From Belliella pelovolcani (lineage in GTDB: Bacteria > Bacteroidota > Bacteroidia > Cytophagales > Cyclobacteriaceae): a stretch of 64,000 bases of DNA. Location of the stretch: the NCBI RefSeq assembly GCF_900156785.1, contig NZ_FTOP01000009.1:62001-126000 (forward strand). Reading direction: 5' to 3'. The translations under genes were made by a program, and so were the position numbers. Positions 18,299 to 56,182 of this stretch are shown here, piece by piece. The notes beneath the pieces are model-generated. The model worked only from the letters and a program-made list of their open reading frames with translations. It did not search any database and was not told where the DNA came from. Within the stretch, counting starts at the first letter, position 1, and the number at the start of each line of letters is the position of its first letter.

Positions 18299-20206
18299 AT
18301 GAATCTAATAAACCTTAAAAAACTATATATTCTTACTATTAGTCTTATTATCAGTCAATTGATATATGCTCAAGGTAAGTATGAACTTGCTTTGGTTCCT
18401 TATCCTTCGGAGGTATCCATTGGAGAAGGGACATTTGTATTAAAAGACAAAACTCAATTGTATGCCGAGAATGATGCTCAGCGAGGTTCAGCGATGCTAT
18501 TCAATACTTATATCAATAAAAGATTTGGGGTAAGTACGAGTATATCTTCTCAAGCACAGGTTCACACTAAAATCAAAGTGAGTCATGATTCAAACATGGA
18601 GAATGAAGCTTACAGCCTCTCTGTTAATGCTAATGAGATAGAGGTTAAAGGAGGTGATGCTGGTATTTTTTATGCATTTCAAACGCTCATTCAATTGATC
18701 GAACAAAGAGGCAATGAATTACATATTCCAGTAGTCCAGATCAAGGATCAGCCGGAGTTTGGTTATAGGGGATTGATGATCGATGTGAGTCGTCATTTTA
18801 GAACCCTAGATGAGATGAAACAAATTGTGGATTTGATGGCTCATTTTAAATTGAATAGACTGCATTGGCACTTGACAGATGATCAAGGCTGGAGGTTGGA
18901 AATCAAAAAATATCCTAAGCTTACTGAGGTAGCCGCATGGAGAGACTCAACGATTATTGGGCAATACGGCAATTTCAAGCCATTTATATATGATGGGGTA
19001 AGACATGGTGGCTTTTATACCCAAGATGAAGCAAGAGAATTGGTACGCTATGCTGCTGAAAGAAAAATAACTGTGATTCCTGAGATCGAACTTCCAGGAC
19101 ATAGTTCTGCTGTACTTGCTGCTTACCCTGAATTTGGAAGTTTTGATGTGGTCAATGGTGTAGTTTCAAAAGGGAGTATTGCTGCTAAACGAGAGAATGG
19201 TCAGTCTTATAACAATGAAATTTTACCCTATGTGCCAGGATATTGGGGGATTCATTATAATATATTCGGTCCAAAAGAAGAGACCTTTAAGTTCCTAGAA
19301 GATGTCTTGACAGAGGTGATGGCTATTTTTCCAAGTGAATATATCCATATAGGAGGTGATGAGGTGCCTAAGGATCATTGGAAAACTTCTGAGATTGCTC
19401 AAAAGGTTATCAAAAAAAATAAACTCAAAGATGAACATGAACTTCAAAGTTATTTCATCAAGAGGATCGAGAAGTTCCTCAATAAAAACGGTAGAAACTT
19501 GATTGGTTGGGATGAAATCCTCGAAGGAGGCTTGGCTCCCAATGCTACAGTGATGAGTTGGAGAGGTGAGGCTGGAGGAATTGCAGCTGCCAAGATGGGA
19601 CATGATGTCATCATGACACCAAATAGTCATATGTACATTGACCATGGTCAGGGAAAGCAAGCCGATGAACCTTTGTTTATTTGTTGCTATTTGCCATTGG
19701 AAAAGGTCTATAGCTATCATCCAAGACCAATGGATCTGACTCAAGATCAGCAAAAGCATATTTTAGGAGTACAAGCAAATATGTGGACAGAGTATGTTCC
19801 ATCATTTGAAAAGATGCAATATATGGTGTTTCCGAGACTGCTGGCTTTGTCAGAAGTGGCTTGGATGGCGAAAGATAAAAAGGATTATAACTCTTTTGCC
19901 AAGGTTCGAATGCCTAAACACCTGGCTGAACTTGATCAACAAAACATCAATTTCAGAATTCCAGAAGCGATAGTAGAAGTTAATCTAAAAGATGGTAAAA
20001 AGGAAGTGAAATTGACGAGTAGTGTAGCTGGTAGCAAAATATATTACTCGTTTGATGGTCACAAGGCAGATAGAACAGCTCATCTATATAGAGGGCCTTT
20101 CTTGATGCCTGTTCATGGGGAAGGGCAGGAGCCATTGAAATTGAAATATATCATTGTAACACCATCTAACAGAGAAAGTGGTATATACACTGTAGAGATT
20201 GAGTAG
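18299..20206 (+). CDS. Beta-N-acetylhexosaminidase, GH20
   Basis: 635 aa with signal peptide (ends near YAQGK). N-terminal GH20b domain, catalytic barrel from about residue 155 (YRGLMIDVSRHFR, LHWHLTDDQGWRL) and the catalytic Asp-Glu pair in HIGGDEVPK (Asp354-Glu355) for substrate-assisted cleavage. The C terminus (about 560-635) is a small beta domain. It removes terminal beta-GlcNAc or GalNAc. Last gene of the operon, 15 bp after the isomerase, followed by a terminator. Confidence 0.93.
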   Translation: MNLINLKKLYILTISLIISQLIYAQGKYELALVPYPSEVSIGEGTFVLKDKTQLYAENDAQRGSAMLFNTYINKRFGVSTSISSQAQVHTKIKVSHDSNMENEAYSLSVNANEIEVKGGDAGIFYAFQTLIQLIEQRGNELHIPVVQIKDQPEFGYRGLMIDVSRHFRTLDEMKQIVDLMAHFKLNRLHWHLTDDQGWRLEIKKYPKLTEVAAWRDSTIIGQYGNFKPFIYDGVRHGGFYTQDEARELVRYAAERKITVIPEIELPGHSSAVLAAYPEFGSFDVVNGVVSKGSIAAKRENGQSYNNEILPYVPGYWGIHYNIFGPKEETFKFLEDVLTEVMAIFPSEYIHIGGDEVPKDHWKTSEIAQKVIKKNKLKDEHELQSYFIKRIEKFLNKNGRNLIGWDEILEGGLAPNATVMSWRGEAGGIAAAKMGHDVIMTPNSHMYIDHGQGKQADEPLFICCYLPLEKVYSYHPRPMDLTQDQQKHILGVQANMWTEYVPSFEKMQYMVFPRLLALSEVAWMAKDKKDYNSFAKVRMPKHLAELDQQNINFRIPEAIVEVNLKDGKKEVKLTSSVAGSKIYYSFDGHKADRTAHLYRGPFLMPVHGEGQEPLKLKYIIVTPSNRESGIYTVEIE

Positions 20207-20227
20207 TATGAATAGGTATTGACTATG

Positions 20228-20266
20228 AATACCATGGAAGACCAATGTTTTTCATGGTATTTTTTT
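20228..20266 (+). terminator. Rho-independent terminator after GH20
   Basis: 9-bp perfect stem AATACCATG/CATGGTATT with a 16-nt loop, then a T run. Confidence 0.85.
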
Positions 20267-20528
20267 ATCTGGTAACTCGAAAGATAACATTTTGATTTCA
20301 TTTGAAATGTGAAAATAAAATGAAAATTAATTTATTTTCGTTTTATATAATAATGAAAGTTTTTATATTTCGAAATATTCCGATAGCTTATTAATTTAAG
20401 ATTTGGATTAAGGTGATTTAAGATAGTGATTAGGAAGTCAAGAAAACGAAAAATTAGATTTTAATGATCTATCAATTGAGTTTGAGAAATTATGAAAAAA
20501 GTATTTGAAGTAAAATTTTCTATATAGC
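20267..20528 (+). promoter_or_regulatory. Promoter region of the GalNAc operon with two palindromes
   Basis: AT-rich, no gene. It holds a 13-bp inverted repeat with one mismatch (20315-20327 and 20334-20346, ATAAAATGAAAAT arm, 6-bp spacer) and a perfect 14-bp palindrome ATATTTCGAAATAT (20365-20378). Both look like dimeric repressor or activator sites. A 13-mer here (20353-20365) recurs upstream of the minus-strand susC. Confidence 0.5.
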
Positions 20529-22307
20529 ATGCTGTTACAAGGGATTGACTGGATCATTCTTATTGGCTTTTTTGCAGTATCACTCGGGATAGGGTTATAT
20601 ACAGCCAAAAAGGCATCTAAAAGTCAAGAAGAATATTTTAATGCTGGAGGTAACATGTCCTGGTGGTTACTTGGGATATCCATGGTCGCTACGACTTTCT
20701 CGACAGATACACCCAACTTAGTGACAGATATTGTCAGGACAAATGGAGCGGCTGGTAATTGGGTATGGTGGAGTTTTTTACTTACTGGTATGCTGACTGT
20801 CTTTTTCTTTGCGAAGCTTTGGAAGCGATCGGGAGTATTGACAGATATAGAATTCTATGAATTGAGGTATAGCGGTAAGCTTGCCGCATTTTTGAGAGGG
20901 TTTAGGGCCATTTATTTAGGTGTTTTTTTTAATGTGGTAATTATAGCCTCCGTCTCACTTGCAGCTATCAAAATTGGAGGGATTTTGCTAGGGATTAGTC
21001 CGTTGCAGACATTGTTGATAGCTGGCATCGTCACCGTGATCTATAGTTCCCTTGGAGGATTGCGAGGTGTGGTCTTGACAGATTTCTTGCAATTTGGGCT
21101 CTCTTTAGGCGGAGCAATAGCTGCTGCTTACATTGCAGTTTCCCATCCAGCGGTAGGTGGTATGGATAATTTGATCAATCACCCAGATGTAAGTAGTAAG
21201 CTTCATATACTTCCTGATTTTGGAAATATGGAAATTGCGGTTGTGATATTTTTTATTCCACTTTTTGTCCAATGGTGGTCTGTATGGTACCCAGGTGCAG
21301 AGCCTGGAGGAGGGGGCTACGTTGTCCAAAGGATGCTAGCCGCCAAAAATGAAAAGCATGCCTTTTCCTCTGTTTTGCTTTTCAATATTGTTCATTACGC
21401 TATTAGACCTTGGCCATGGATCATTGTGGCATTAGCTTCCATCATCGTTTTCCCTTCTTTGGATGATATTCAGACGGCATTTCCAAACGCTTCTGCTCAA
21501 ATCATCAAAGACGATATCGCTTATCCAGCCATGTTATCCTTTTTGCCTGTGGGTTTGATGGGTTTGGTAGTTACTTCATTGGTAGCTGCATACATGTCTA
21601 CACTTTCTACGCATCTGAATTGGGGAGCTTCCTATGTGGTAAATGATTTCTACAAAAGGTTTATTAATCCTAAAAGTTCGCAAAAGGCATTGGTTAATGT
21701 AGGAAGAGTTGCAACAGTTTTGATCATGTTATTTGGAGGGTATATGGCTTTGCAGTTGGAGAATGCACTTCAAAGCTTCAGTATTCTCCTGCAGATCGGA
21801 GCAGGGACGGGATTGCTATATATTCTAAGGTGGTATTGGTGGAGAATCAACGCTGCTAGTGAGCTGACAGCTATGGTAGTGTCATTTATGGTAGCTTTAT
21901 ATTTTGCATTTGTTCATAAGCAGTATTTTGAGCCCGTAGAAACCCATATTGAGTTGATAGTTGGGGTGGCAATTACGACATTTTCATGGGTAACGGTGGC
22001 TTACTTGAGTTCTCCTACGAATAAGTCTGTATTGATTAATTTTTTGAAAATCACTAAAGTGCCTGGCAGGGGGTGGGCGAAGATTAGGTCTCAAATGACC
22101 TCACAGGAAGCCGCTGATGCTGATCCAACTTTATTTGGATTTCAAAAAGCCCTGTTCTCCTTTGCAGTCGGAGTAATTGCTATTTATGCATTACTCTTAG
22201 CCATTGGGAAAGTAGTATTGAAAAGTTATACGTCTGGCGCAGGTCTATTTATGGTAGCTATTGTTGCGTTTGCACTTGTATATAGATTGATAGATAAAAA
22301 AGGATAA
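20529..22307 (+). CDS. SSS-family sodium:solute symporter, candidate GalNAc importer
   Basis: 592 aa, about 14 hydrophobic helices, with SSF signatures (AGGNMSWWLLGISMVATTFS, YSSLGGLRGVVLTDF, SLVAAYMSTLSTHLNWGASY). The inner-membrane Na+ symporter family takes up sugars and sialic acid. First gene of a seven-gene operon for amino-sugar catabolism and only 5 bp from agaS, so the substrate is probably GalNAc; that assignment is inference. Confidence 0.85.
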   Translation: MLLQGIDWIILIGFFAVSLGIGLYTAKKASKSQEEYFNAGGNMSWWLLGISMVATTFSTDTPNLVTDIVRTNGAAGNWVWWSFLLTGMLTVFFFAKLWKRSGVLTDIEFYELRYSGKLAAFLRGFRAIYLGVFFNVVIIASVSLAAIKIGGILLGISPLQTLLIAGIVTVIYSSLGGLRGVVLTDFLQFGLSLGGAIAAAYIAVSHPAVGGMDNLINHPDVSSKLHILPDFGNMEIAVVIFFIPLFVQWWSVWYPGAEPGGGGYVVQRMLAAKNEKHAFSSVLLFNIVHYAIRPWPWIIVALASIIVFPSLDDIQTAFPNASAQIIKDDIAYPAMLSFLPVGLMGLVVTSLVAAYMSTLSTHLNWGASYVVNDFYKRFINPKSSQKALVNVGRVATVLIMLFGGYMALQLENALQSFSILLQIGAGTGLLYILRWYWWRINAASELTAMVVSFMVALYFAFVHKQYFEPVETHIELIVGVAITTFSWVTVAYLSSPTNKSVLINFLKITKVPGRGWAKIRSQMTSQEAADADPTLFGFQKALFSFAVGVIAIYALLLAIGKVVLKSYTSGAGLFMVAIVAFALVYRLIDKKG

Positions 22308-22312
22308 ATAAT

Positions 22313-23491
22313 ATGATATCAACAACCTATTTGAACCTAGAGAAGCAGTCTGCTGTCAATGTCGGCGCAGAGCATACTGCTAGAGAAATCATGCAGCAAC
22401 CTCAGTTGTGGCTGGATGTATTGGCACTGATTGCTTCTCAAAAAATCGAATTAGAATCGTTTTTGAATCCACTTTACAGCCTTCCTAATTTGAGGATCAT
22501 ACTTACTGGTGCCGGATCTTCAGCTTTCATTGGAGAGGCAGCGGCTGGTTTGGTTCAATCCAGTACAGGAGTGATTACTCAAGCTATACCGACTACAGAT
22601 ATTGTCACGCACCCCGAATTGGCATTTAACAAGGCAATACCAACACTTTTGGTTTCTTTTGCTCGATCTGGTAATAGTCCAGAAAGTGTTGAGACAGTAC
22701 ATTTGGCAGACGAATATGTGGATGATATTTATCATTTAGTAATCACCTGTAATCGTGATGGTGAGCTGGCTGAATATGTCAAGAACCATAAGGGCAATAG
22801 TTATTGCTTATTACTTCCTGAGGAAGCTAATGATAAAAGTTTAGCAATGACAGGTAGCTTTACATCTATGTTGCTGTCAATCTTGGTGATTGCACAATTA
22901 AAAAATCTAGGCAATGTCGGTGAAAAAGTGATAGCTGTATCTGAGCATGCGGATGAATTTTTTGCAAAACATTTAGGGGACTTTATGGAAATCGCCGGCA
23001 GTCAATTTGACAGAGTGATATTTTTAGGGTCTGGCCCAATGTTGGGAGTGGCAAGAGAGTGTCATTTGAAACTTCAAGAATTGACAGACGGTCAGGTGGT
23101 ATGTAAGCATGATTCATTCCTTGGGTTTAGACATGGCCCTAGGGCTGTTGTCAATGAAAAATCCTTGCTTGTTTTTCTTTTTTCAAATGATCCACATGTT
23201 TATCAATACGAAAGAGACCTGGCGGCTAGTTTAGCTCAAGACTCAAGAAGCCTACCAATCATCACCTATGGTGCTTGGTATTCAGATGACTTCAGGTCAA
23301 TCATAAATTTAGCGCCAAGGACAAGTAGTTGCTCAGCAGGAGAGTTTAGGATTCTATCAGCTACGCTCATCGGACAGTTGTTAGGTTTTTATAAATGTCT
23401 CAATTTGGGATTGAAACCTGACAATCCTTCTATAAGTGGTGCAATATCTAGGGTTGTACAAGGTGTAAATATTTATCGCAAAGAAAAATGA
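22313..23491 (+). CDS. agaS: AgaS: galactosamine-6-phosphate deaminase/isomerase
   Basis: 392 aa with two SIS domains. GAGSSAF and SFARSGNSPES mark the phosphosugar loops and KHDSFLGFRHGPRAVV the AgaS-type C-terminal signature. AgaS converts galactosamine-6-P to tagatose-6-P plus ammonia. Neighbouring kinase and aldolase genes fit the tagatose-6-P route exactly. Overlaps the next start by 4 bp. Confidence 0.9.
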   Translation: MISTTYLNLEKQSAVNVGAEHTAREIMQQPQLWLDVLALIASQKIELESFLNPLYSLPNLRIILTGAGSSAFIGEAAAGLVQSSTGVITQAIPTTDIVTHPELAFNKAIPTLLVSFARSGNSPESVETVHLADEYVDDIYHLVITCNRDGELAEYVKNHKGNSYCLLLPEEANDKSLAMTGSFTSMLLSILVIAQLKNLGNVGEKVIAVSEHADEFFAKHLGDFMEIAGSQFDRVIFLGSGPMLGVARECHLKLQELTDGQVVCKHDSFLGFRHGPRAVVNEKSLLVFLFSNDPHVYQYERDLAASLAQDSRSLPIITYGAWYSDDFRSIINLAPRTSSCSAGEFRILSATLIGQLLGFYKCLNLGLKPDNPSISGAISRVVQGVNIYRKEK

Positions 23492-24396
23492 TACTTGTAG
23501 TCTGTCCCAACCCTTCTATCGATACTTATGCTCAAATGGAGTGTATGAAATTTGGTGAGCCTAATAGATTTATCAATATCCAAGAGTTTCCAGGTGGCAA
23601 AGGCGTTCATGTGGCATTGGCCCTACAAGAGATGGGCTCTAAGGTGTCTTTATTAGGCTTTTGGGCAGGACCAAATGGGGAGTGGGTCAAATCTCAGTGT
23701 AAGAATCATGGGATAGATGTTGGAGGAATCAGCTTATCAGGAAATACTAGGAAATGCTATACTATTCGATCAACTGATAAGCAATTGGATCATACTGAAT
23801 TTTTAGAGCCAGGTCCAAAGATGGATATTCAAAGTTTTGAGGCCTTTAAGGAGCTATTTGCTGAAAAAATTAAGCAGGCACAGCTTGTGATCATCTCAGG
23901 TTCTTGGCCTCTGGAAAGTGCAGAGAATTCCTGCCAAGAGTTGGTCAAGCTATGTAATCAAAATCAAATTGATGTAATCTTGGACTGTACTGGAGTTCAG
24001 CTCCAGAAAGCTATACAAGAGAACATCACAGCATTGCATCTTAATGAAAATGAATATAATGAGACAAATAATATGATGCCTAATGAACTGAAGTCTGTGT
24101 CAATGCTAGCCTTGACCAAGGGCAAAGATGGTTTGGAGTTGATTTCCAGCGAAGGTATAATAGAGGGTAGAGTTACACTAAGCAAAGTAATCAGTACAGT
24201 GGGAAGTGGGGACTGTCTGACAGCAGGGTTAGGATTTAGTCTAATCAATAATAAAGACATACAAGATCATGCAAGATTTGCGGTTGCTTTTGGAGCTGCA
24301 AATTGCCTTAGAGCAGAGCTTGGGATGCTCTACAAGGAGGATGTAAAAAAATTGCTTCATATTATCGAAATCAAAGAGAAGAAGTATGCACGATAA
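23488..24396 (+). CDS. PfkB kinase of the LacC/FruK type, likely tagatose-6-phosphate kinase
   Basis: 302 aa. Starts with the 1-PFK/LacC pattern VVCPNPSIDTYAQ, with PGGKGVHVALALQ and the anion-hole/catalytic motif VGSGDCLTAG. LacC/AgaK-type enzymes phosphorylate tagatose-6-P to tagatose-1,6-bisphosphate. Positioned right after agaS. Fructose-1-P kinase activity is the alternative, less likely here. Overlaps the next gene by 11 bp. Confidence 0.85.
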   Translation: MILVVCPNPSIDTYAQMECMKFGEPNRFINIQEFPGGKGVHVALALQEMGSKVSLLGFWAGPNGEWVKSQCKNHGIDVGGISLSGNTRKCYTIRSTDKQLDHTEFLEPGPKMDIQSFEAFKELFAEKIKQAQLVIISGSWPLESAENSCQELVKLCNQNQIDVILDCTGVQLQKAIQENITALHLNENEYNETNNMMPNELKSVSMLALTKGKDGLELISSEGIIEGRVTLSKVISTVGSGDCLTAGLGFSLINNKDIQDHARFAVAFGAANCLRAELGMLYKEDVKKLLHIIEIKEKKYAR

Positions 24397-25339
24397 AAAA
24401 TTGCTTGTAGTTGGGGAGTTGAATGTAGACTTGATTCTAAACGGTATCAAAGGATTTCCAAAGGTTGGTACTGAAATCATAGCTTCTCAGATGAACCTCA
24501 CGTTAGGTAGTAGTTCTGCGATCTTTGCTTGTAATATAGCAGCATTGGGAGTGCCCACAAGTTTCTGTGGTAGAATTGGGAAGGATGATTTTGGTGATTT
24601 CGTTAAGGAGAAGTTTAAGGAGAGGGGTGTGTTCTCTGATTTTTTGATTCAAGATGAGAGCTACCAAACAGGATTGACCATTGTGCTCAATTACGATCAA
24701 GATAGAGCAAATGTGACCTATTGTGGTGCGATGGAGCATCTTGGAATAGAAGATATCCCATGGGAAAATTTAGATCAGTTTGATCATCTACATTTTTCCA
24801 ACCTATTTCTTCAGCCAAAAATCAGAAAAGAAATTAAGCAACTATTCCAAAAATCTAAAGCAGCAGGTCTGACGACTTCATTGGATTTGCAAACAGATCC
24901 TGATAGTGATTTTGACTTTGATTATCGTGCCTGCCTGCCTTATGTTGATGTTTTTTTGCCAAATGAAGCAGAAATTAAAGGGCTTACAGGAAAGAGCAGT
25001 GTGGAGGATGCGCTAGAGGAATTGAGACCTTTTGCTAATGTAGTCGCAGTAAAGATGGGGCAAAAAGGAAGTATGCTATTCCATCAAGGAACAATAATTC
25101 AAGAGGAAGGATTTGTTCATGATCATTTTGTAGATGCCATTGGTGCTGGTGATAGTTTCAATGCAGGTTTTATTCACCATTTCCTTGCAGGCAAACCTTG
25201 GAGCACTTGTTTACGATTTGCAAACCTTACAGGTGCTGTCAATACTACAGCAGCTGGAGGGACGACAGCATTTGAAAGTCTAGCGGCTTTTCAGGAAACA
25301 ACAAAAAAGCTATTCAATGTAAATACAGCCAACTTATGA
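24386..25339 (+). CDS. PfkB/ribokinase-family sugar kinase, candidate GalNAc kinase
   Basis: 317 aa. Ribokinase-like: N-terminal VVGELNVDLILNG, GRIGKDDFGDFV, and the catalytic GAGDSFNAG (about residue 252). A second PfkB kinase in the operon is needed for the first pathway step (GalNAc to GalNAc-6-P), since an SSS carrier does not phosphorylate its cargo. That role is inferred from the gap it fills. Overlaps both neighbours (11 bp before, 4 bp after). Confidence 0.82.
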   Translation: MHDKKLLVVGELNVDLILNGIKGFPKVGTEIIASQMNLTLGSSSAIFACNIAALGVPTSFCGRIGKDDFGDFVKEKFKERGVFSDFLIQDESYQTGLTIVLNYDQDRANVTYCGAMEHLGIEDIPWENLDQFDHLHFSNLFLQPKIRKEIKQLFQKSKAAGLTTSLDLQTDPDSDFDFDYRACLPYVDVFLPNEAEIKGLTGKSSVEDALEELRPFANVVAVKMGQKGSMLFHQGTIIQEEGFVHDHFVDAIGAGDSFNAGFIHHFLAGKPWSTCLRFANLTGAVNTTAAGGTTAFESLAAFQETTKKLFNVNTANL

Positions 25340-26160
25340 AGTTAAAAGAAAAATTAAGCAGCCTTACAGATAAGAAAGTCGGATTATTGGCTACGAATTA
25401 CTATAACTTAGAAACCCTACATGGTGTGCTTGGTGCGGCGCAGCAAACGGGAGATTCAATTATTTTGCAATTGACACAAAGCTCAATTGACTATATGGGG
25501 TTGGATTCTGCTGTTGCATTGGGTAGGGAAGGGCTCAAGCAATTTGGTGTGGAAGGATGGATACATTTAGATCATGGAGGCTCGGTAGAATTAGCTCAAC
25601 GCTGTTTAGATGCTGGCTTTGATTCTGTGATGATAGATGGCTCTGAGTTACCATTTGGGGAGAATGTGAAACTCACTCAAGAAGTAGTCAAAAGGGCAGC
25701 ATCTTATGGTGCGCATGTAGAGGCGGAGCTAGGTTTTGTTGCGAAATTGGGTCAATCTCATGCACATAGTGGATTTACCCAGCCCCATGAAGCTAGACAG
25801 TTTGTAGAGGAGACAGGAGTAGATGCATTGGCCATATCCATTGGTACTGCACATGGGTTTTACAAAGAAGAACCAAAATTACAGATAGATTTACTTCAAT
25901 CGATTGTAGCAGAGGTACAGGATGCCACATTTGTATTGCATGGCAGTTCGGGTGTGCCTGAATCTCAGCTTCGTGCTGCAATTCAAAATGGAATCTGCAA
26001 AGTCAATTTGGCTACGGAGATTAAGAATATCTTTATGAAGACCCTTCAGGATATATTGACCCAAAACGAGGAAATAGATTTAAGAAAAGTATTTCCCAAA
26101 GCTACGAATGCAGTCACTGAGCTGGTCAAAGGAAAGTTAGATATTGTAAACAATAGATAG
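25336..26160 (+). CDS. Class II aldolase, tagatose-1,6-bisphosphate type (GatY/KbaY-like)
   Basis: 274 aa. Zinc-dependent class II aldolase motifs: HLDHGGS, VEAELGFVA, GTAHGFYK, LHGSSGVPE and KVNLATEIK. The short length and GTAHG form fit the GatY/KbaY/AgaY group that splits tagatose-1,6-bisphosphate to DHAP and glyceraldehyde-3-P. Last enzyme of the predicted route. No GatZ/KbaZ-type partner is seen nearby. Confidence 0.88.
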   Translation: MKLKEKLSSLTDKKVGLLATNYYNLETLHGVLGAAQQTGDSIILQLTQSSIDYMGLDSAVALGREGLKQFGVEGWIHLDHGGSVELAQRCLDAGFDSVMIDGSELPFGENVKLTQEVVKRAASYGAHVEAELGFVAKLGQSHAHSGFTQPHEARQFVEETGVDALAISIGTAHGFYKEEPKLQIDLLQSIVAEVQDATFVLHGSSGVPESQLRAAIQNGICKVNLATEIKNIFMKTLQDILTQNEEIDLRKVFPKATNAVTELVKGKLDIVNNR

Positions 26161-26161
26161 T

Positions 26162-27142
26162 ATGAATTTGATCGATGCTCATTGCCATTTAAATACCCGT
26201 TCCAAAGCAAAGATGATACTTGCTTTGGAGCGTGGTGCTTCATTTTTGTCAATCAATACAGATATTCCATTTTTTGACCCTATTGGAGAACAAGAGGCAG
26301 TGGTTTTAGACTTGAAGCGGGATTTTCCAGAACAGGTAAGGTATATGGGGACATTTTCATCAGCAGGTTTTGGAAACAACTCTTGGTTAGCCAACACTAT
26401 TGATCAAATCAAAAAGACCGTAGATAATGGTGCTACTGGGATCAAGATTTGGAAAAATTTCGGAATGGAATTACGAGATAAGTCGGGGCAATTTGTAATG
26501 GTCAGTGACGAAAGGTTGGATCCTGTATTTGACTTTCTTTCTATGAACAAAATTCCATTGATAGCGCATATTGGTGAACCTAGGAATTGTTGGCTTCCAT
26601 TGGAGCAAATGACAGTAGATTCAGATAGAAACTACTTTACCAAACATCCAGAATATCACATGTATTTGCATAAGGAGTTTCCAGATTATTTGGCTCAAAT
26701 AGGAGCAAGAGACCAAGTGCTTGAGAAGCATCCAGATTTAGTATTTATTGGGGCGCATTTTGGGAGTATGGAATGGGATCTTACAGAAGTTGGGAAGCGT
26801 CTTGAACTTTATCCTAATTTCTATGTGGATATGGCAGAGAGAATCTGTCATGTTCAATTGCAAGGGATGGAGCATAGGGAAATGGTACGAGACTTTTTTA
26901 TCAGATATCAAGATCGGATCATTTATGGCTCTGATGTGATCGATTCATTTTTTGATCATGAGGATCAAGCAGCGGCTAGATTTGATGCGTTGTGGTCCTA
27001 TCATTGGCAGTATTTTTCATCAGAAGATATCATGGAAGCTGAGGAGTTTGAGGGAGAGTTTCAAGGTCTAGGACTTCCAACTGAAGTATTAGAAAAGCTA
27101 TTTGTGATTAATGCAGCAAAGATTTACGGATTTAAAAATTAA
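26162..27142 (+). CDS. Amidohydrolase_2-family hydrolase, candidate GalNAc-6-P deacetylase
   Basis: 326 aa TIM-barrel metal hydrolase: HxH at the N terminus (DAHCHLN, His7/His9), KIWKNFG, IAHIGEP, FIGAHFGS and YGSDVID supply the metal ligands. It is not a NagA/AgaA-type sequence. The operon otherwise has every step of GalNAc breakdown except deacetylation, so I infer this protein removes acetate from GalNAc-6-P. A lactonase-like or other sugar hydrolase is the alternative. Starts 1 bp after the aldolase. Confidence 0.75.
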   Translation: MNLIDAHCHLNTRSKAKMILALERGASFLSINTDIPFFDPIGEQEAVVLDLKRDFPEQVRYMGTFSSAGFGNNSWLANTIDQIKKTVDNGATGIKIWKNFGMELRDKSGQFVMVSDERLDPVFDFLSMNKIPLIAHIGEPRNCWLPLEQMTVDSDRNYFTKHPEYHMYLHKEFPDYLAQIGARDQVLEKHPDLVFIGAHFGSMEWDLTEVGKRLELYPNFYVDMAERICHVQLQGMEHREMVRDFFIRYQDRIIYGSDVIDSFFDHEDQAAARFDALWSYHWQYFSSEDIMEAEEFEGEFQGLGLPTEVLEKLFVINAAKIYGFKN

Positions 27143-27159
27143 TAATTAACATAATAACC

Positions 27160-28569
27160 ATGAGCAACAAAAGAAGAGAATTTCTAAAGATTTCGGGTCT
27201 GGCAGGACTTGGCCTATTTGGTACAGGTATGAGTAATTTTAGTTCTGCTGAAGAGATGGAACGTTTACCTGAATTGATTAAGAGGAAAAGAGTTCAACAT
27301 TTTAACATGTCTGGTTTTGCTGCCCCAAAGTTAGATAAGGTAAGAGTTGGCTTTATAGGGTTGGGTATGAGGGGGCCAGGTGCTGTGAGTAGAATGAGTA
27401 AAATAGAAGGGGTAGAGATTGTGGCACTATGTGACCTAATCCCGGAGAAAGTTGATAAAGTCACCAAATCTCTAGAAAAGACAAAGCATAAACCTGCAAA
27501 ATATTCTGGCAACGCTTATGCATGGAAAAAGATGGTGGAAAGAGACGACATTGACCTGATCTATATTGCTACTCCATGGGATTGGCATGTGCCGATGGCT
27601 GTATATGCTATGGAAGCAGGAAAACATGCAGCGGTAGAGGTACCAGCGGCCAAAACCCTTGAAGAGTGCTGGCAACTAGTAGAGACCTCTGAGCGTACTC
27701 AGAAGCATTGCATGATGCTTGAGAACTGTTGTTATGACTTTTTTGAATTGATGACGCTCAATATGGCAAGAGATGGTTTTTTTGGAGATATTCTACATGC
27801 CGAAGGGGCTTATATTCATGATCTTTTGGATCTTAATTTTGCCAAGAATGCCTATGAAGATATGTGGAGACTGAAAGAAAACTACCGAGATGGCAACCTT
27901 TACGCCACACATGGATTAGGGCCTATTGCCCAGTTGATGGATATCAATAGGGGAGATCAGATGGATTACTTGACTTCTTTATCTTCTGCAGATTTCCATA
28001 TGGCGGACAAGGCTAGAGAATTGGCAGAGCAGGATAATTTTTACGCATCATTTGTGGAAAAGCAGTACGGAGGTAATATGAACACAACGATTATCAGGAC
28101 TAAGCGTGGCAAGTCGATGATGGTTCAGCATGACGTGACATCTCCAAGACCGTATTCTAGGCTACATGCCCTGAGTGGAACTAAAGCATTTGCTCAAAAG
28201 TATCCAGTGCAGCGTGTATCTAGTGGTCATGGATGGATCAAGGATGATGAAATGAAAGTTCTTCAGGAAAAATACACGCCAGAAATCGTGAAAAAAGTAG
28301 GTGAATTGGCCAAGACAATTGGAGGTCATGGCGGAATGGATTTTATGATGGAGTGGAGATTGGTAGATTGCCTAAGAAATGGTCTTCCTTTGGATCAGGA
28401 CGTCTATGATGCGGCACTTTGGTCGGCTATTTCACCACTTAGTGAATGGTCGGTAGCTCATAGGTCTAACTCTATTGATGTGCCTGACTTCACTGGTGGC
28501 TCTTGGAAAACCAATAAGCCAGTAGACATCTCTTTAAATGGTGGTGGAACAACAAAAGTAATTGTATAA
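27160..28569 (+). CDS. GH109-like alpha-N-acetylgalactosaminidase (Tat signal)
   Basis: 469 aa. Tat-type leader KRREFLKISGLAGLGLFG. Gfo/Idh/MocA fold with NAD motif VGFIGLGMRGPGAV. The usual EKP motif is replaced by EVPAAKTLEECW, and ATHGLGPIAQLMDINRG, GGHGGMDFMM, PLDQDVYDAALWS and VPDFTGGSWK match GH109 enzymes as I remember the Elizabethkingia A-zyme. These release alpha-GalNAc by an NAD-dependent elimination mechanism. It would supply GalNAc to the pathway upstream in the operon. Confidence 0.9.
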   Translation: MSNKRREFLKISGLAGLGLFGTGMSNFSSAEEMERLPELIKRKRVQHFNMSGFAAPKLDKVRVGFIGLGMRGPGAVSRMSKIEGVEIVALCDLIPEKVDKVTKSLEKTKHKPAKYSGNAYAWKKMVERDDIDLIYIATPWDWHVPMAVYAMEAGKHAAVEVPAAKTLEECWQLVETSERTQKHCMMLENCCYDFFELMTLNMARDGFFGDILHAEGAYIHDLLDLNFAKNAYEDMWRLKENYRDGNLYATHGLGPIAQLMDINRGDQMDYLTSLSSADFHMADKARELAEQDNFYASFVEKQYGGNMNTTIIRTKRGKSMMVQHDVTSPRPYSRLHALSGTKAFAQKYPVQRVSSGHGWIKDDEMKVLQEKYTPEIVKKVGELAKTIGGHGGMDFMMEWRLVDCLRNGLPLDQDVYDAALWSAISPLSEWSVAHRSNSIDVPDFTGGSWKTNKPVDISLNGGGTTKVIV

Positions 28570-28607
28570 ATTTTGCATAGGGATAATTTAGTTTAAAAGT
28601 GTAAAGG

Positions 28608-28634
28608 CACCAGGGGTATCTCTGGTGTTTTTTT
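28608..28634 (+). terminator. Probable terminator after GH109
   Basis: Stem CACCAG/CTGGTG (28608-28613, 28622-28627) followed by seven or more T. Confidence 0.65.
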
Positions 28635-28639
28635 ATTAT

Positions 28640-29175
28640 TGAGTTCGCGACTATAAGGAGGAAGAATGAGGGGAAGGGAAAATGATTAAAGGGAAAGATT
28701 TATCGTAGAACTTGCCCCGATTCTCGCAGTGAGCGCTGAGGGCAAAGGTCCCAGTATCCCTTACTTTGGTATTACTTTGGTGGAGCTTTAATGTTACTTT
28801 GGTATGGCTTTGATAGTTGCATGGCTTAGAGAAAATACCAAAGAATTTAGCATTTGTATTATTTTAAGAATTCATATAAACAGGAGCCTCTTTTTTGTTA
28901 TGGGGTCAGCTTACGGGGTCAGACTATCCCCAGCTTTGATACTACTTTGATACTACTTTGATGTAGCTTTGGTGGTAAGGGATGTGGAGGGAAGATATAG
29001 GATGAAAGTAATAAGGTTAAAGAGGAAAGGAAATCCGGATTCTCGCTAAGATCGGCAAAGGTGCATATGAAAGATGAGAGAGGAATTCCTGCCTGGAGAA
29101 TTGACAGTTTCTTCATTGAGTCATTCGAAGTATAAGCGTGCATCTTCATGCCCCCGTTTTGAATTTGCCTACCGA
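28640..29175. repeat. Gene-poor region with 11-bp tandem arrays and repeat remnants
   Basis: No credible gene. Array 1 (28764-28818) has five 11-bp units starting CTTTGGT/CTTTGAT/CTTTAAT; array 2 (28934-28977) has four (two identical CTTTGATACTA units, then variants). Each array is preceded or followed by a related segment (GATTCTCGC...GGCAAAGG at 28720 and 29037). Between them is a GGGGTCAG repeat followed by TATCCCC (28899-28930), like ends of REP/RAYT-type elements. The whole block lies between two convergent operons. Confidence 0.7.
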
Positions 29176-29180
29176 TAGGA

Positions 29181-29214
29181 AGGGCTAGCATACTTGAGAT
29201 TTTTCAGCTAGCCC
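29181..29214. repeat. Inverted repeat downstream of the minus-strand operon
   Basis: 9-bp arms AGGGCTAGC/GCTAGCCCT with a 16-nt loop. No T run on either side, so terminator function is uncertain. Confidence 0.5.
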
Positions 29215-29282
29215 TATTTAAAATGGGTTGTCGAGTTTTACTTAACAGCCCTTTATGAAAGCAAAGTCAAGTTTTTAAAGTT

Positions 29283-31052
29283 CTAAAAAGCTCCAAATTC
29301 TGCAAGAGCTGCAAACTGATCACTATCATGGGAGTTTAGACCTTCGAATTTTATATACCTTGCTTCAATTTTATTGCTCAATTTGATATTTTGCTGGCTA
29401 GCATTATTGAGGAGTATACCTGAGCTCACCAAGCTCCAATTTTGATTGTCAACGCTGGTATAGATTTTATAATCTTTGATTTTACGCATTCCATTTCTTT
29501 GGAAAAGGATAAAGCTAGTGATTTCAGTGTTAGCTTTCGTGTCAATTACAAAGTAATGAGGGTAGCTTGCACTGGTACCTGTCCATTGGCTATGCCAATA
29601 GGTATTCACATCACCATCAATCACATCTTTTGCACGTCCAGTAGCGCCTTCACCAGAAGTCTCTTCTGAACTGAAAGCAATGATTTCCCAATCAGATTTA
29701 TCCATTTCTTGAATTTGTTCAGGTGCAGTGAGTGCTATTCCTAATGTTTCTAAATGTTCGAAATCAATCACAGGAGTCATATTGTTTGGGCTTCTATGAT
29801 GCATACTGTTGAGTTCGGTGTGTGGGGTGAAAAAACCACAGTTTTGTAAATAAAATTTACCATCGCGACTACCTCCGGCATAATCCATTCTAAAACCAGC
29901 ATTGGCTATCGCATCGCCTGTAAATCTAGCTGTTGTAAGTTCTGTCCAGGTACCATTAGTAGAACGTACCCATTGATTGTCATAAAAAACATGCCTTCCA
30001 ATGTGCCCTGTTCTTGTGTTGAAATTTTCTAGAAAGGAATGTGGTCTTTTGTACCAAGTATCTGTTTTTGGCCTTTTAAATTGAGCTATGATTTGCCATT
30101 CCCCTATCTCAGGTGCAAAAAAGTATCCAGTATAAATGGTATTTCCATTTCCATCAGGTTCTACAGCGTTAAGGAATCTATAGGTAGTGCCAGCTTTCCA
30201 ATTATAGACAAGGTAGCTTTGACCTCCTGAACCTTCATTTCCAAACTCACCTGTATAGACATTTTCACCTTTTTTCAATACTACAATCTTTTCGTCATCA
30301 GGTATATCGTTGGGATTGTCTGTGACAAATGGACTCCATACCGAAAAGAGTACTCTTCTTTCGTTGGTAGAATTAACTTGGATTCCAAAGTAACCTTCTG
30401 CAAATCCATTGGCCATGAAATATGAACCAATTGGGTCTTGCCCTTCAGGGATGGTCATTTCATTATAAAACCATTTGTAATCGCTGTCATCAGGGACCTG
30501 ATATCCTAAATGAACAGAAGGCCCTCGTCTTCCCCAGTAAAAATTATTGTCTTGATTATCTTTTACATAGGAAGGGGAGAGCTCGTTATTATGCTCAATT
30601 TTGATTGTTTTAATTTTTGAGAAGTTACTTCCGCCTTTTGAAATACCTTGGATTTCAATCTTAGTGTATCCAGCTTCCAATTTGAATTCACCAACTTGAA
30701 CTATACCCGTTATGCCTTTTTGAAGGGTTATTTTTTTTGAAGTCTCATTGATTTTGAATTCAATCTCTGAATCATCCTCTTGTGCTTCTATGTCAATATT
30801 GAGTTTTACTTTAGGAGCGCCAGATGATTTGAAAAACACACCAAATACAGTAGCAGGGGAGGACCAAGACTTAATTCCATCTTGAGTTATTTCTGTATTC
30901 TCTTCCCCAGCTAATTGATAAGTGTTTCCACCCAGTGGAATTGTGAAAGCGTCAGCATAAGATGTTTGATCATTATCAATAGGTGTCTCTGGTTCAGCGC
31001 ACCCAATAAAGGATAGTAATCCTAAAATCAATAGTTTTAGCATTTGTTTCAT
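29283..31052 (-). CDS. DUF5077/DUF3472 lipoprotein with C-terminal F5/8-type C domain
   Basis: 589 aa. Lipoprotein signal with lipobox ending SFIGC (Cys18). Residues about 30-155 look like a DUF5077-type carbohydrate-binding-like domain, about 160-430 like DUF3472 (WGRRGPSVHLGYQVP, GYFGIQVNS, RTGHIGRHVFYDNQWV), and about 455-589 like a discoidin/F5-8C domain (DVIDGDVNTYWHSQW, FILFQRNGMRKIKDYKIY). It occupies the surface glycan-binding-protein slot after susCD. Likely binds glycans at the cell surface; enzymatic activity is not excluded. Confidence 0.8.
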   Translation of the reverse strand: MKQMLKLLILGLLSFIGCAEPETPIDNDQTSYADAFTIPLGGNTYQLAGEENTEITQDGIKSWSSPATVFGVFFKSSGAPKVKLNIDIEAQEDDSEIEFKINETSKKITLQKGITGIVQVGEFKLEAGYTKIEIQGISKGGSNFSKIKTIKIEHNNELSPSYVKDNQDNNFYWGRRGPSVHLGYQVPDDSDYKWFYNEMTIPEGQDPIGSYFMANGFAEGYFGIQVNSTNERRVLFSVWSPFVTDNPNDIPDDEKIVVLKKGENVYTGEFGNEGSGGQSYLVYNWKAGTTYRFLNAVEPDGNGNTIYTGYFFAPEIGEWQIIAQFKRPKTDTWYKRPHSFLENFNTRTGHIGRHVFYDNQWVRSTNGTWTELTTARFTGDAIANAGFRMDYAGGSRDGKFYLQNCGFFTPHTELNSMHHRSPNNMTPVIDFEHLETLGIALTAPEQIQEMDKSDWEIIAFSSEETSGEGATGRAKDVIDGDVNTYWHSQWTGTSASYPHYFVIDTKANTEITSFILFQRNGMRKIKDYKIYTSVDNQNWSLVSSGILLNNASQQNIKLSNKIEARYIKFEGLNSHDSDQFAALAEFGAF

Positions 31053-36099: not shown

Positions 36100-36948
36100 T
36101 TATTTTTCAAAATGTAATGCTGCTGCTCCTAGTATACCTGGCTCTTGAACATCTGATATATTTATTTTTAATTTTTCCATTAAAGATGGATATTGACTGA
36201 TTTTAAGCTGGTCAATCAAGCTTCCCATGAATAGCTGATGAGACTGGCTAATAGATCCTCCTAGAATAATTCCTTCTGGCGAAAGTGTATACGAAACGTA
36301 TTTGATCAATTCCGCTAAATGAACACCAAACTGTTGAAATGCTTCTAATGCATGTTTTTCTCCATTAATAGCCAAAGTAGCTAGGTAATCCGCAGATTGC
36401 CTATATTCTCTGACGAAAAATTTACTGCTACAATAATCTTCAAAAGTTTTCCCATTGTAGGGAATCGCACTCCATTCGCCAGCAGCTGCATTGACACCCT
36501 GATACAGGGTTTTGTTGATGATGATTCCTGATCCTAATCCTGTTCCTAAAGAGATTCCTACTATGTGCTTCATGTCGCAAAAGGCACCAAACTTATAGGC
36601 TCCTAAAACAAAACAATTGGCATCATTATCAATTTTAACTGATAACTTGGTGTGTGTTTCTAGGTAATTTTTTAAGTTGGAATTTTCTAGCATTGGAATA
36701 TTATTGATGCTTAGAATAGTGCCAGTTGATAATTCGATTAATCCAGGGACGCCAATTCCTATCCCATGAAACTCCTCGTGATTATAACTTGAGATTAAAT
36801 CTAAAATACTTTGAAAGATAATCTCTTTACTTTGAAATGCTGGGGTTGGAAAGCTTTTTATGTCCTTTAGTTTGTTTTCTGTAAGGATTCCAGATTTGAT
36901 ATTTGTACCACCGATATCGATACCTAATATGCCTTGGTTTTTTTTCAT
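36100..36948 (-). CDS. ROK-family sugar kinase
   Basis: 282 aa from the chosen ATG 36948 (MKKNQGILGIDIGGTN); upstream in-frame ATGs would add a lysine-rich tail. ATP motif DIGGTNIKSG, catalytic IDNDANCFVLG, and GISLGTGLGSGI. The CxCGxxGCxE zinc motif of many ROK proteins is absent, replaced by TFEDYCSSKFF, as in Bacteroidota ROK kinases from memory. No DNA-binding domain. Likely phosphorylates GlcNAc, ManNAc or glucose; next to nagB, GlcNAc kinase is my preferred role. Confidence 0.85.
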   Translation of the reverse strand: MKKNQGILGIDIGGTNIKSGILTENKLKDIKSFPTPAFQSKEIIFQSILDLISSYNHEEFHGIGIGVPGLIELSTGTILSINNIPMLENSNLKNYLETHTKLSVKIDNDANCFVLGAYKFGAFCDMKHIVGISLGTGLGSGIIINKTLYQGVNAAAGEWSAIPYNGKTFEDYCSSKFFVREYRQSADYLATLAINGEKHALEAFQQFGVHLAELIKYVSYTLSPEGIILGGSISQSHQLFMGSLIDQLKISQYPSLMEKLKINISDVQEPGILGAAALHFEK

Positions 36949-37028
36949 TTTAAATTTCAATTTCATTTTGACTTTTACGAATGAAGTCCGCTTTCTCAAT
37001 TTCTTTTGAAAAAGCGGACATATAGGGT

Positions 37029-39356
37029 TTAGATAAATCCTTCAATAGATTTCTCTAATTCCCTAGCATGTGAAAGAAACTCTTGCACATTCATGTCTTT
37101 CGTGAAAATCAAACCATGACTTGACCTAACTTTGGCTGTTTCGTGTAGATAAAAATAGTTTTTACCTAAAAGCAACTGAATATCTTGGAGTTGATTTACC
37201 CAGATTCTTTTAGCCACTGTGCTAAATTTCCCATTATGAGAGTAACTTGGAAAGGATGCATTTACTTGACTCAAGTAGCAATTGGCAAAAGAATCTTCCA
37301 TTACTGACATATCTCCAAGAGAAACAGGTGTGATTACATTGGCTTCAAATGGTTCAAACTTAAACCAGACATTCCTGTAGCCTACTATTCTGAAGTTTTC
37401 TAAGTCTTCTTCTTCACTCCATTGTCTTACAGCCTCTGCTGTGGCCTGAAGCACTTTATAATGCGTATCTGGACCGGAACCCTCGGGATCTAAAGTGAGG
37501 CTAAGTACGGTAGGTTTAATCTTCCTTAAGAGATTTAAAATTGGCTCTACATCCCTCTTTTTGTCTGGTTGTTCTGTGAATATATCTCCGGTATAGAAGC
37601 CAAGTCTCAAGTGGTGAACATTTTTGACTTGAACACCGAAATGTGCCCAAACCAATTCTTCCTCAAACTCCCTTATCATTCCTTTAAGTTTTTGGATTTT
37701 GGATGGATTTTTTTCGCCATCATAGGAGTTTCTAAGGATGCTGATTAGGTCATTGATGGTTTCCCTTAGTTCGATTTCATCTTTTATTTCATAAATGCCT
37801 ACGATAGCCCTTACAAGCCTATGGCAAAGTCCTCTAACTCTTTGGTATTCATTTTCTGAAGCCACATTCGTAAGGAAGTGGTAAACATCTTTATCTGTCT
37901 TGAGCTTATATCCTACCTCAAAAAAATCCTCGTATTTTACCATTTGAATCTCTCTGTTGTCAAGTAATTTTTTAGCCTGAAGGAGCGTATCTATAATAAA
38001 GGTATTGGTGACAGCAGTAAAGCCTGATGTGAGTACAGAGAAATGAACTTCATTACTATTTTCCTGAAGCTGTGTAGTGATCTGTGGCAAAATACCTAAT
38101 GAGATGTCATCATGATGGGGGCCTGTATGCAGAATGACTTCATTTTTTTGCTTGATAGATCCTCTTTTTAGTTTTTGAATTGTACTCTCTATTACTTTTT
38201 CTACTGTGTCTTCTGCTAAATCAGGAATAAGTGATGTGTATTTGTCATTTTTTAAATCTTCTAGCTTTAGCCGATCCCCATATTTTCCTAACTTTTTACA
38301 TAGCTCAATCACTGCCCTTTCGGTTTTTTCCCAAGTCCAATCTCCCTCTTTGAAATAAGCATCTATGGTATCAGTCAATTTGATGGCAGCTCCTTTTGTA
38401 AGGTAAAATCTTCCATTTATTAACTTTTGAAGGCTTGATGCAGGGTAAACATTACTTATAGGGTTTTCCAATGAGTCTTTGATGATTTGCGCTTTGGCTT
38501 CACCTGCTGCAATGATAATAGCTACGGCGTCCTTTTTGTATGTGATTGTGTCCAAACCTATTGTGATAACCAATCTATTGGAGGAAACTTCTATTCCTCC
38601 AAGGTCACCAGCAGCTACAGCTTGGGTTTCAAAGTTGGTCTCAGTGAGCCGAGTTGAGGAAAAGAGATGCGTACCACGAGTATTGAAAGCAATGTGACCA
38701 TCTGGGCCGATTCCTCCAAGAAAGAATCCAATCCCGCCTTTATCTCTTATTTTTTGTTCGTATTGGCCACACCATTCATCTATTAGATAAATGGACTCTT
38801 GTTGAATTTTCTCTAATTCGTTGATAGGATCTCTAAATCTCAAAGAAAGATCTACCTTTAAGTTTGGAAAAACATCTTTGAAATGTTTTCCGCCCGATAG
38901 TGGTATTTCATCAGAATTGATTAAAATGGCATTTTCGGAACTCAAACCAAAGCCTTCTATATAGAATTTCTGGACGTAATGGTAGAAGCTGTTTGCTTGT
39001 TTGGATGAAATAGGGTAAAATTCGTCAATCTGTACAAATGTGAGGTTACTCAAGTCAGGCTTATTACATTTTTCAAGTCCATATTTCTGTCTGACCTCTT
39101 TTCCTTTCTTGTTATCCCAGTTATCCAATAAAAATTTCGTCCACTTGATGAAATACTCTGGTGTTTTTCCTGTTGGAAGGCTGATTACTCCATTTGGGTT
39201 TTCAGATACCCATTCTAGAAATCTACAAGCTGTAATCAAACCCAATTTCGGAAAATTGTCAACAGTGATATAAGGTATCAAAGTGTTTGTTTGAATTTGA
39301 TTTGACTCCTTATGAAAAGCCATTTCTACAGGAGAAAATGTTTGATTGTGATTCAT
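37029..39356 (-). CDS. nagB: Glucosamine-6-phosphate deaminase fused to PIG-L/LmbE-like deacetylase domain
   Basis: 775 aa, about three times a normal NagB. Residues about 30-320 are NagB-like (PTGKTPE, FVQIDEFYPI at 107-116, GIGPDGHIAFN at 215-225 with the catalytic Asp/His). From about 400 there is a second domain with the PIG-L zinc motif form HTGPHHDDISLG (Asp416/Asp417) and a long C-terminal extension. NagB turns GlcN-6-P into fructose-6-P and ammonia. The second domain could deacetylate GlcNAc-6-P, joining two consecutive steps. Such fusions exist in Bacteroidota from memory; the activity is inference. Confidence 0.88.
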   Translation of the reverse strand: MNHNQTFSPVEMAFHKESNQIQTNTLIPYITVDNFPKLGLITACRFLEWVSENPNGVISLPTGKTPEYFIKWTKFLLDNWDNKKGKEVRQKYGLEKCNKPDLSNLTFVQIDEFYPISSKQANSFYHYVQKFYIEGFGLSSENAILINSDEIPLSGGKHFKDVFPNLKVDLSLRFRDPINELEKIQQESIYLIDEWCGQYEQKIRDKGGIGFFLGGIGPDGHIAFNTRGTHLFSSTRLTETNFETQAVAAGDLGGIEVSSNRLVITIGLDTITYKKDAVAIIIAAGEAKAQIIKDSLENPISNVYPASSLQKLINGRFYLTKGAAIKLTDTIDAYFKEGDWTWEKTERAVIELCKKLGKYGDRLKLEDLKNDKYTSLIPDLAEDTVEKVIESTIQKLKRGSIKQKNEVILHTGPHHDDISLGILPQITTQLQENSNEVHFSVLTSGFTAVTNTFIIDTLLQAKKLLDNREIQMVKYEDFFEVGYKLKTDKDVYHFLTNVASENEYQRVRGLCHRLVRAIVGIYEIKDEIELRETINDLISILRNSYDGEKNPSKIQKLKGMIREFEEELVWAHFGVQVKNVHHLRLGFYTGDIFTEQPDKKRDVEPILNLLRKIKPTVLSLTLDPEGSGPDTHYKVLQATAEAVRQWSEEEDLENFRIVGYRNVWFKFEPFEANVITPVSLGDMSVMEDSFANCYLSQVNASFPSYSHNGKFSTVAKRIWVNQLQDIQLLLGKNYFYLHETAKVRSSHGLIFTKDMNVQEFLSHARELEKSIEGFI

Positions 39357-39411
39357 TATAGGTTTTATTTTTGGTTTGTGATATTTTTTTAGGAAGGCTG
39401 TATTTCCTCAT

Positions 39412-40176: not shown

Positions 40177-40189
40177 TTGATATTTCTGA

Positions 40190-44677: not shown

Positions 44678-44707
44678 ATGAATCAATTAACAAAAACCAA
44701 AAAAAAC

Positions 44708-47884: not shown

Positions 47885-47903
47885 ACTATTAAAGGACTTA
47901 ATT

Positions 47904-49397: not shown

Positions 49398-49484
49398 ACT
49401 CATAGGGTTATTAAGTTTGGGAAAAGGGATGGAGATTTCCATCCCCCTTTCTCTTTATCCTCTCAACCTTTAACTTTCGATTAA

Positions 49485-50411: not shown

Positions 50412-50421
50412 TTAAAAGGAT

Positions 50422-56026: not shown

Positions 56027-56182
56027 ACTTCACTATGGATTCCGAATCTCCACTAGTATCAATTAGAAATGAAGTTTATAGATTCGGATACTTATTGATA
56101 TTTGATATTCGTGGATATTAGTTCCAGTATTCAAATTGTTGCTGTAAAATCAAGTAAGTGTTTTCGTCCATTAATTACAATC

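Follow-up and report, generated by a model that had tools for sequence, protein, structure and literature searches.

A PF04909 amidohydrolase as candidate deacetylase in an agaS operon of Belliella pelovolcani

A seven-gene agaS operon

A stretch of 64,000 nucleotides from Belliella pelovolcani (the window) contains a putative operon for the use of N-acetylgalactosamine (GalNAc), in which an amidohydrolase of family PF04909 is the candidate deacetylase. Seven plus-strand open reading frames (ORFs) form one tight unit at 20529-28569, with the coordinates, overlaps and small gaps that the original prediction had given. The first gene (20529-22307) encodes a sodium:solute symporter (SSS, SSF family; PF00474, 106 bits), presumed from its context to import GalNAc. 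It is followed by an AgaS-type galactosamine-6-phosphate deaminase/isomerase (22313-23491), which matched TIGR02815 over its full length at 369 bits against a cut-off of 529, and whose best PDB match was 3odp (295 bits), a putative AgaS. The TagK-like PfkB protein of LacC/1-PFK type (23488-24396) is presumably a tagatose-6-phosphate kinase and scored 190 bits with TIGR03168 and 130 bits with the lacC model, both below cut-off. A second PfkB kinase (24386-25339; PF00294, 180 bits), referred to as PfkB2, is a candidate galactosamine or GalNAc kinase and matched no NCBIfam model above cut-off. The class II aldolase (25336-26160; PF01116, 272 bits), a presumed tagatose-1,6-bisphosphate aldolase, reached 200-225 bits with the NCBIfam models of that enzyme, below cut-off. 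The PF04909 amidohydrolase (26162-27142), given the working name AH, is a candidate GalNAc de-N-acetylase. The last gene (27160-28569) encodes a glycoside hydrolase of family GH109, an alpha-N-acetylgalactosaminidase with a Gfo/Idh-type NAD domain and the C-terminal domain PF21252 (Glyco_hydro_109_C, 133 bits), which matched the solved GH109 structure 6t2b at 335 bits and 2ixa at 240 bits. Its N-terminus, RREFLKISG, was judged by eye to be a Tat-like (twin-arginine translocation) leader. The family names first assigned to these genes agreed with the Pfam, NCBIfam and PDB matches, though the scores lay below the cut-offs of the specific NCBIfam models.

The symporter stop codon at 22307 is followed by the AgaS start codon at 22313, and the next three junctions are overlaps (23488-23491, 24386-24396 and 25336-25339). 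The aldolase stop at 26160 is followed by the AH start at 26162, and the AH stop at 27142 by the GH109 start at 27160. Terminator-like hairpins, each followed by a T run on the plus strand, stand between the GH20 gene upstream and the symporter gene (20227-20262, 16-pair stem) and 3' of the GH109 gene (28603-28632, 13-pair stem). They are the two longest-stemmed of five such hairpins in 20100-29400; this number is not above chance (6.2 expected), and it is their positions that are suggestive. With one directly ahead of the symporter gene and the other directly behind the GH109 gene, they make it probable that 20529-28569 is transcribed as a single unit. The preceding unit encodes a GH20 hexosaminidase (18299-20206, plus strand; PF00728, 394 bits), a possible second source of N-acetylhexosamine, and this arrangement was kept in other Belliella loci. 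No gene of a phosphotransferase system (PTS) was found inside the operon, to which that search was confined, and the operon has no internal regulator gene. A DeoR-type regulator and an EamA-type transporter were frequent beside agaS in the agaS loci among L083-L220, and neither was present among the window genes scanned.

NagA absence, the predicted AH metal site and linkage to agaS

No NagA/AgaA orthologue was found in the Belliella genome (4.1 Mb, 100% complete), where the top NagA score was 31 bits (cut-off 225.65), which bears out the claim that such a homologue is missing. The 14 PF01979 matches of the genome corresponded to 12 proteins, all of which were scanned; none reached the NagA cut-off, and the highest score was 46 bits (L007). 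Those above their own cut-offs were adenine deaminase, dihydroorotase and imidazolonepropionase, and the rest were near Xaa-Pro dipeptidase or nameless. AH was the sole PF04909 match in the whole genome.

AH matched PF04909 at 65.0 bits (cut-off 26.4) and matched no NCBIfam model at 1e-3, the NagA model (TIGR00221, CE9) included. Searches of PDB sequences with AH alone and with a 40-sequence alignment revealed no relative; all matches were at chance level (E of 0.15 or higher). The predicted structure (predicted local distance difference test, pLDDT, 93.3; predicted template modelling score 0.90) was read as a TIM barrel. D5, H7, H9, K95, H136, H199 and D258 were invariant in all 40 sequences of alignment A2, which were hand-picked among AH relatives and do not include L155. 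In the DSSP assignment of the model, these residues lie on or adjoining predicted strand 1 (H7 and H9), strand 4 (K95), strand 5 (H136), strand 6 (H199) and strand 8 (D258). A two-metal (subtype I) amidohydrolase site consists of HxH on strand 1, Lys on strand 4, His on strands 5 and 6, and Asp on strand 8. By residues and predicted strand placement, AH would carry this ligand set, which by the rules of the superfamily would fit a two-metal hydrolase with a carboxylated lysine and not a decarboxylase. We infer the metals in this site, as we do every substrate of the pathway proposed below.

The linkage of AH to agaS was read in two samples of Bacteroidota genomes. The family sample comprised 148 genomes, with AH (1e-30) in 51, AgaS in 26 and NagA (1e-30) in 56; NagA was scored on at most 12 candidates per genome there and on at most 4 in the phylum sample. 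The family sample gave 27 AgaS places, the window included, and the phylum sample (395 genomes, 1e-50) gave 20, of which 18 were new. The neighbourhoods were read by tblastn of the fetched DNA; ORF-based tables missed AH in L151, L162 and L166, for example. AH lay inside a same-strand agaS operon at 33 of these 45 places (18/27 in the family sample, 15/18 in the phylum sample), and in 26 of the 33 operons it followed the aldolase with no other labelled gene between. At three further places it was near the operon but not within it (L093, L094, L135), and three places ended at contig edges (L098, L108, L109).

No NagA match was present in 14 of the 26 AgaS-bearing genomes of the family sample and in 16 of the 20 of the phylum sample, and therefore the GalNAc deacetylation step has no named gene there. 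The co-occurrence of AH with agaS in genomes without NagA, a check proposed with the original prediction, was found in 12 of the 14 family-sample genomes, which held AH in the operon; the other two (G014, G044) held it elsewhere. NagA was missing from 12 of the 15 phylum-sample genomes with AH in the operon. AH was present in 21 of 26 AgaS-bearing genomes and in 30 of 122 AgaS-less genomes (Fisher p 1e-7, with kinship ignored), a test that covered co-occurrence across genomes and not gene adjacency, and the deacetylase proposal draws its strength from it. NagA occurred in none of the agaS operons; the DNA fetched for L102 and L130 contained it at a site apart from the operon. In a second set, centred on AH and made up of the best 80 of at least 468 relatives in species genomes, a tblastn search with two NagA queries found NagA at 0 of the 80 loci.

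The place of PfkB2 in the agaS operons was kept. In 67 agaS loci with PfkB2 and aldolase (L083-L220), the GatZ/KbaZ-type protein and the LacC-like kinase were mutually exclusive: 44 had the kinase only, 6 GatZ/KbaZ only, 17 neither and none both. This exclusion would be in keeping with GatZ-like proteins acting as a replacement. An M42-peptidase-like gene stood directly before agaS in L085, L086, L087, L144, L145 and L167 (Echinicola where named).

Cytoplasmic and secreted AH proteins

AH proteins were called secreted or cytoplasmic by a home-made rule on the N-terminus, apart from L199, which was judged cytoplasmic by eye; for L138 and L139 the start is doubtful. Among 148 AH rows, 72 were secreted, 64 cytoplasmic and 1 unclear, and 11 (L155 included), which lacked the motif or a start, were excluded from the tree and from the wider residue counts. 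The AH of the window has no room for a signal peptide and is cytoplasmic, because its start codon at 26162 follows directly on the aldolase stop. Its closest relative by named organism, among the matches listed, was that of Belliella buryatensis (95% identical).

The best 80 loci of the AH-centred set held 42 cytoplasmic, 32 secreted and 6 unassigned AHs, and AgaS was within the locus in 33/42, 5/32 and 1/6 of them, respectively. In 39 genomes from these loci that were searched whole, AgaS was found somewhere in 28 of the 32 with cytoplasmic AH, while the 7 with secreted AH had AgaS in 2 and NagA in all 7. In a tree of 138 rows made by a quick method, 59 cytoplasmic AHs, that of the window among them, formed one clade (Shimodaira-Hasegawa-like approximate likelihood ratio test, SH-aLRT, 99), which nests among secreted AHs; six other AHs labelled cytoplasmic fell elsewhere.

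Two kinds of secreted AH occurred in agaS operons. AHs of the nearer kind share about 43-48% identity with that of the window and were found in L091, L194, L214, L215 and L218; all three of these genomes that were searched (L091, L194, L214) have NagA. The distant kind, followed by a GH36-like gene, was found in L092, L095, L099, L100, L103, L104 and L105. In genomes G042, G068, G088 and G124, which had no NagA match and no AH match at 1e-30, the distant secreted AH was the only one near agaS, so deacetylation by AH would take place only outside the cytoplasm there. In L095, aldolase and secreted AH share one 631-amino-acid open frame (L095:1467-3359); a fusion was considered, and a signal-peptide-like stretch in mid-frame makes two genes in one frame as likely.

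The wider residue counts contain HxH by selection, and the invariance of this motif is therefore cited from A2. Within these counts, the metal ligands were kept in 65/65 cytoplasmic and 55/55 nearer secreted AHs. GH36-linked AHs kept the His and Asp ligands and had Gly at position 95 and Glu at position 96 in 13/13 cases. Such a Glu-type site resembles sites with Glu, as in NagA. On their residues, both the Lys-type and the Glu-type pattern fit hydrolysis.

Some AH loci had other surroundings. The cytoplasmic AHs of genomes without an AgaS match belong to Leeuwenhoekiella (L172, L176, L177) and Anditalea (L163), and in L172 the DeoR-type regulator gene still follows AH, much like the remnant of an operon that was lost. 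One locus of Maribacter orientalis (L187) combines four AH genes from different subfamilies, three of them secreted and one cytoplasmic, with a GH36-like gene and two GH109/Gfo-Idh-type genes. Ten loci, mostly of Algoriphagus (L183, L185, L188, L189, L202, L203, L206, L208, L210, L219), carry secreted AH without agaS nearby, the AH kind of L183 and L202 being unassigned, and have repeated large genes in the vicinity, most often of about 1154-1163, 234 and 660 amino acids. Two AHs from metagenome-assembled genomes, a Natrialbaceae bin (L192, archaeal) and an Oxalobacteraceae bin (L195, betaproteobacterial), were placed among Bacteroidota rows and probably reflect mis-binned contigs or transfer.

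Proposed pathway, alternatives and neighbouring clusters

We propose that AH is the deacetylase of this pathway, in place of NagA/AgaA, and give this reading a probability of roughly 0.64. GH109, together with the neighbouring GH20, would release GalNAc outside the cytoplasm, and the symporter would import it. AH would strip the acetyl group with its two-metal hydrolase site, and PfkB2 would add the 6-phosphate before or after deacetylation. AgaS would then convert galactosamine-6-phosphate to tagatose-6-phosphate, which the LacC-like PfkB and the class II aldolase would take to triose phosphates. AH would thus probably be an uncharacterised kind of sugar deacetylase and a non-orthologous replacement in a known pathway. 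The original prediction held that every step is accounted for; each step does have an assignment by family and context, which falls short of proof. Its more specific claim, that the PF04909 protein is the GalNAc-6-phosphate deacetylase, is supported as to deacetylation by the linkage to agaS, the absence of NagA and the hydrolase-type ligands; as to the substrate, free GalNAc is about as likely.

Among known deacetylases, AgaA-II of Shewanella is presumably a member of the NagA group, and OngB lies outside PF04909. In Flavonifractor, GalNAc is deacetylated before the GH36 enzyme acts, by a deacetylase whose fold is unrelated to that of AH. The E. coli aga/kba system (PTS, AgaA/NagA, AgaS and KbaYZ) has in common with the Belliella operon the AgaS and class II aldolase steps and the overall chemistry (PMC3668189), whereas Belliella has a symporter and a PfkB kinase for the PTS, a PF04909 protein for AgaA/NagA, and a LacC-like kinase in the operon. 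Shewanella (AgaP, AgaK, AgaA-II and AgaS) shares the use of a non-PTS permease with a kinase, and its AgaA-II is listed as a separate type of deacetylase (PMC2996990). The polysaccharide utilisation locus BT4240-50 of Bacteroides thetaiotaomicron is from the same phylum and likewise combines GH109 with a GalNAc kinase, but this kinase, BT4240, is of the APH family and was reported to phosphorylate O1, unlike the PfkB2 of Belliella (PMC11992087); in the main text of that paper, the words AgaS and deacetylase do not occur. OngB, a GlcNAc1A deacetylase, was likewise recruited from the amidohydrolase superfamily for sugar de-N-acetylation, and differs from AH in being of D-aminoacylase type with a subtype V site with Cys/His/His (PMC12017989). 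The pair FpGalNAcDeAc and FpGalNase of Flavonifractor is a possible parallel to the operons of other genomes that join secreted AH and GH36 (PMC11762096). GalNAc routes via AgaA/NagA have been described (PMC3668189, PMC5583593, PMC4694137), and no PF04909 protein was tied to GalNAc deacetylation in the titles and abstract openings that were covered, a set outside which Leyn et al. (2012) falls.

If AH is the deacetylase, free GalNAc and GalNAc-6-phosphate are about equally likely as its substrate, because the nearer secreted AHs share its pocket and a distant secreted AH occurs in agaS operons of genomes without NagA. In the order first proposed, PfkB2 is a GalNAc 6-kinase and AH a strictly cytoplasmic GalNAc-6-phosphate deacetylase. 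This order is a sub-case of our preferred explanation and is possible, though short of even odds. It parallels the route of E. coli (PMC3668189) and that of Shewanella, where GalNAc is handled by a permease plus a kinase (PMC2996990), and the window AH is cytoplasmic. Moreover, the nearer secreted AHs of agaS operons stand in NagA-bearing genomes where searched, and may therefore do another job. In the PfkB2 tree, most kinases from operons with cytoplasmic AH fell in clades apart from those of operons with secreted AH or without AH (the placement of L175 and L180 being unsettled), as a change of substrate would predict; however, this split may be mere linkage, the joint inheritance of neighbouring genes, and the residues at the presumed sugar-contact motifs were the same in all operon types. 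Six pocket residues (E139, W144, Y158, H166, R183 and R227) also recurred throughout, or almost throughout, the cytoplasmic and nearer secreted AHs, and the 11 positions specific to cytoplasmic AHs include no Lys or Arg. Thus neither a phosphate-site switch between cytoplasmic and nearer secreted AHs nor a sugar-site switch between kinases of different operon types was seen. The shared pocket points weakly to an unphosphorylated substrate for both kinds of AH. We therefore also put forward, tentatively, that the first steps are inverted, with AH and its secreted relatives as a new PF04909 class of GalNAc de-N-acetylase acting on the unphosphorylated sugar, in the periplasm of some lineages and in the cytoplasm of others, and PfkB2 as a galactosamine 6-kinase. 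The secreted paralogues do not decide the matter, because 7/7 searched genomes with secreted AH have NagA and the pocket of the distant kind mostly differs, GH36-linked AHs keeping just E139 and R227 of the six residues.

Several observations weigh against AH as the deacetylase. The top Foldseek matches of its model were remote amidohydrolase-type folds, the nearest being decarboxylases, LigY and LigJ at a template modelling score of about 0.5, and the known members of PF04909 are lactonases (sugar lactonases among them), decarboxylases and hydratases. AH was absent at 6 of the 45 AgaS places (L096, L097, L102, L106, L124, L137), of which L097, L106 and L124 are in genomes without a NagA match. 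It was still in the operon in 6 of the 12 family-sample genomes with both AgaS and NagA, so it is not simply a NagA replacement. Among the 32 searched genomes with cytoplasmic AH, NagA (1e-30) was found in 10, above cut-off in 4, and no AgaS match was found in 4 (L163, L172, L176, L177). Furthermore, 27 of the 32 secreted-AH loci in the best 80 had no agaS nearby, and since such AHs are common, the AH family overall need not concern GalNAc. One copy from a metagenome-assembled genome (Gillisia sp., L155:899-1870) lacks the first His of HxH; its DAQVH, where AHs with an assigned start have a DxHxH-type motif, is decay or a sequence error.

The Belliella genome also has other deacetylase candidates, namely two PIG-L matches elsewhere in the genome and a NagB-like/PIG-L fusion within the window (37029-39356, minus strand), which the original prediction had overlooked. 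All scores of the fusion were below cut-off (TIGR00502, 94.5 bits over residues 191-335; PRK02122, 204 bits; PIG-L, 24 bits), and PF01182 missed the NagB part. The fusion adjoins a ROK kinase, starts 8.5 kb past the operon end and 9.9 kb from AH, and is a natural candidate for an N-acetylglucosamine (GlcNAc) branch as well as the best rival deacetylase. We consider it unlikely that this fusion or another PIG-L protein deacetylates GalNAc while AH hydrolyses, for example, a lactone or ester of a linked sugar. The sugar lactonases of PF04909 would suit such a role, as would the GH109/Gfo-Idh-type match near 7/32 secreted-AH loci, a pairing that would suit a dehydrogenase with a lactonase. However, a lactonase has no evident place between the kinase and AgaS, and AH is the protein linked to agaS, whereas 0/138 fetched loci held the fusion, the ROK kinase or the neighbouring creatininase gene. 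That search extended no more than about 9-10 kb away from AH or AgaS, and AH and the fusion are 9.9 kb apart in the window, so the count bears only on whether the fusion belongs to the agaS operon, which it does not. An operon for free galactosamine, with AH as an accessory for rarer acylated substrates, is very improbable. It would suit the three AgaS loci without AH in genomes without a NagA match (G014, G044 and G156, of which G014 and G044 have AHs elsewhere), and galactosamine-only users have been described in Firmicutes and Proteobacteria (PMC5583593), but the Belliella operon is closely preceded by a GH20 gene and ends with a gene of the GalNAc-releasing family GH109.

Where a reconstruction treats AgaA as the mark of GalNAc use, as was done in PMC5583593, AgaS-bearing organisms without NagA would be labelled galactosamine-only. 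If AH is the deacetylase, it would add a family of sugar de-N-acetylases inside PF04909, correct predictions in, for example, Cyclobacteriaceae and Flavobacteriaceae, and provide new deacetylases for GalNAc-bearing glycans.

Two further clusters lie in the window. On the minus strand, the ROK kinase, the NagB-like/PIG-L fusion and the creatininase-type gene stand in a row (36100-40236) upstream of a pair of SusC and SusD genes, past which lies a hybrid two-component regulator; this row is possibly a GlcNAc branch that likewise has no NagA. On the plus strand, the region 44678-62988 encodes SusD (47871), a NanA-like lyase, a NanM-kelch/SSS fusion, a BNR sialidase-like protein, an N-acylglucosamine 2-epimerase (670 bits), two SGNH/sialate esterase-like proteins, a sulfatase and GH20, and is a probable sialic acid utilisation cluster.

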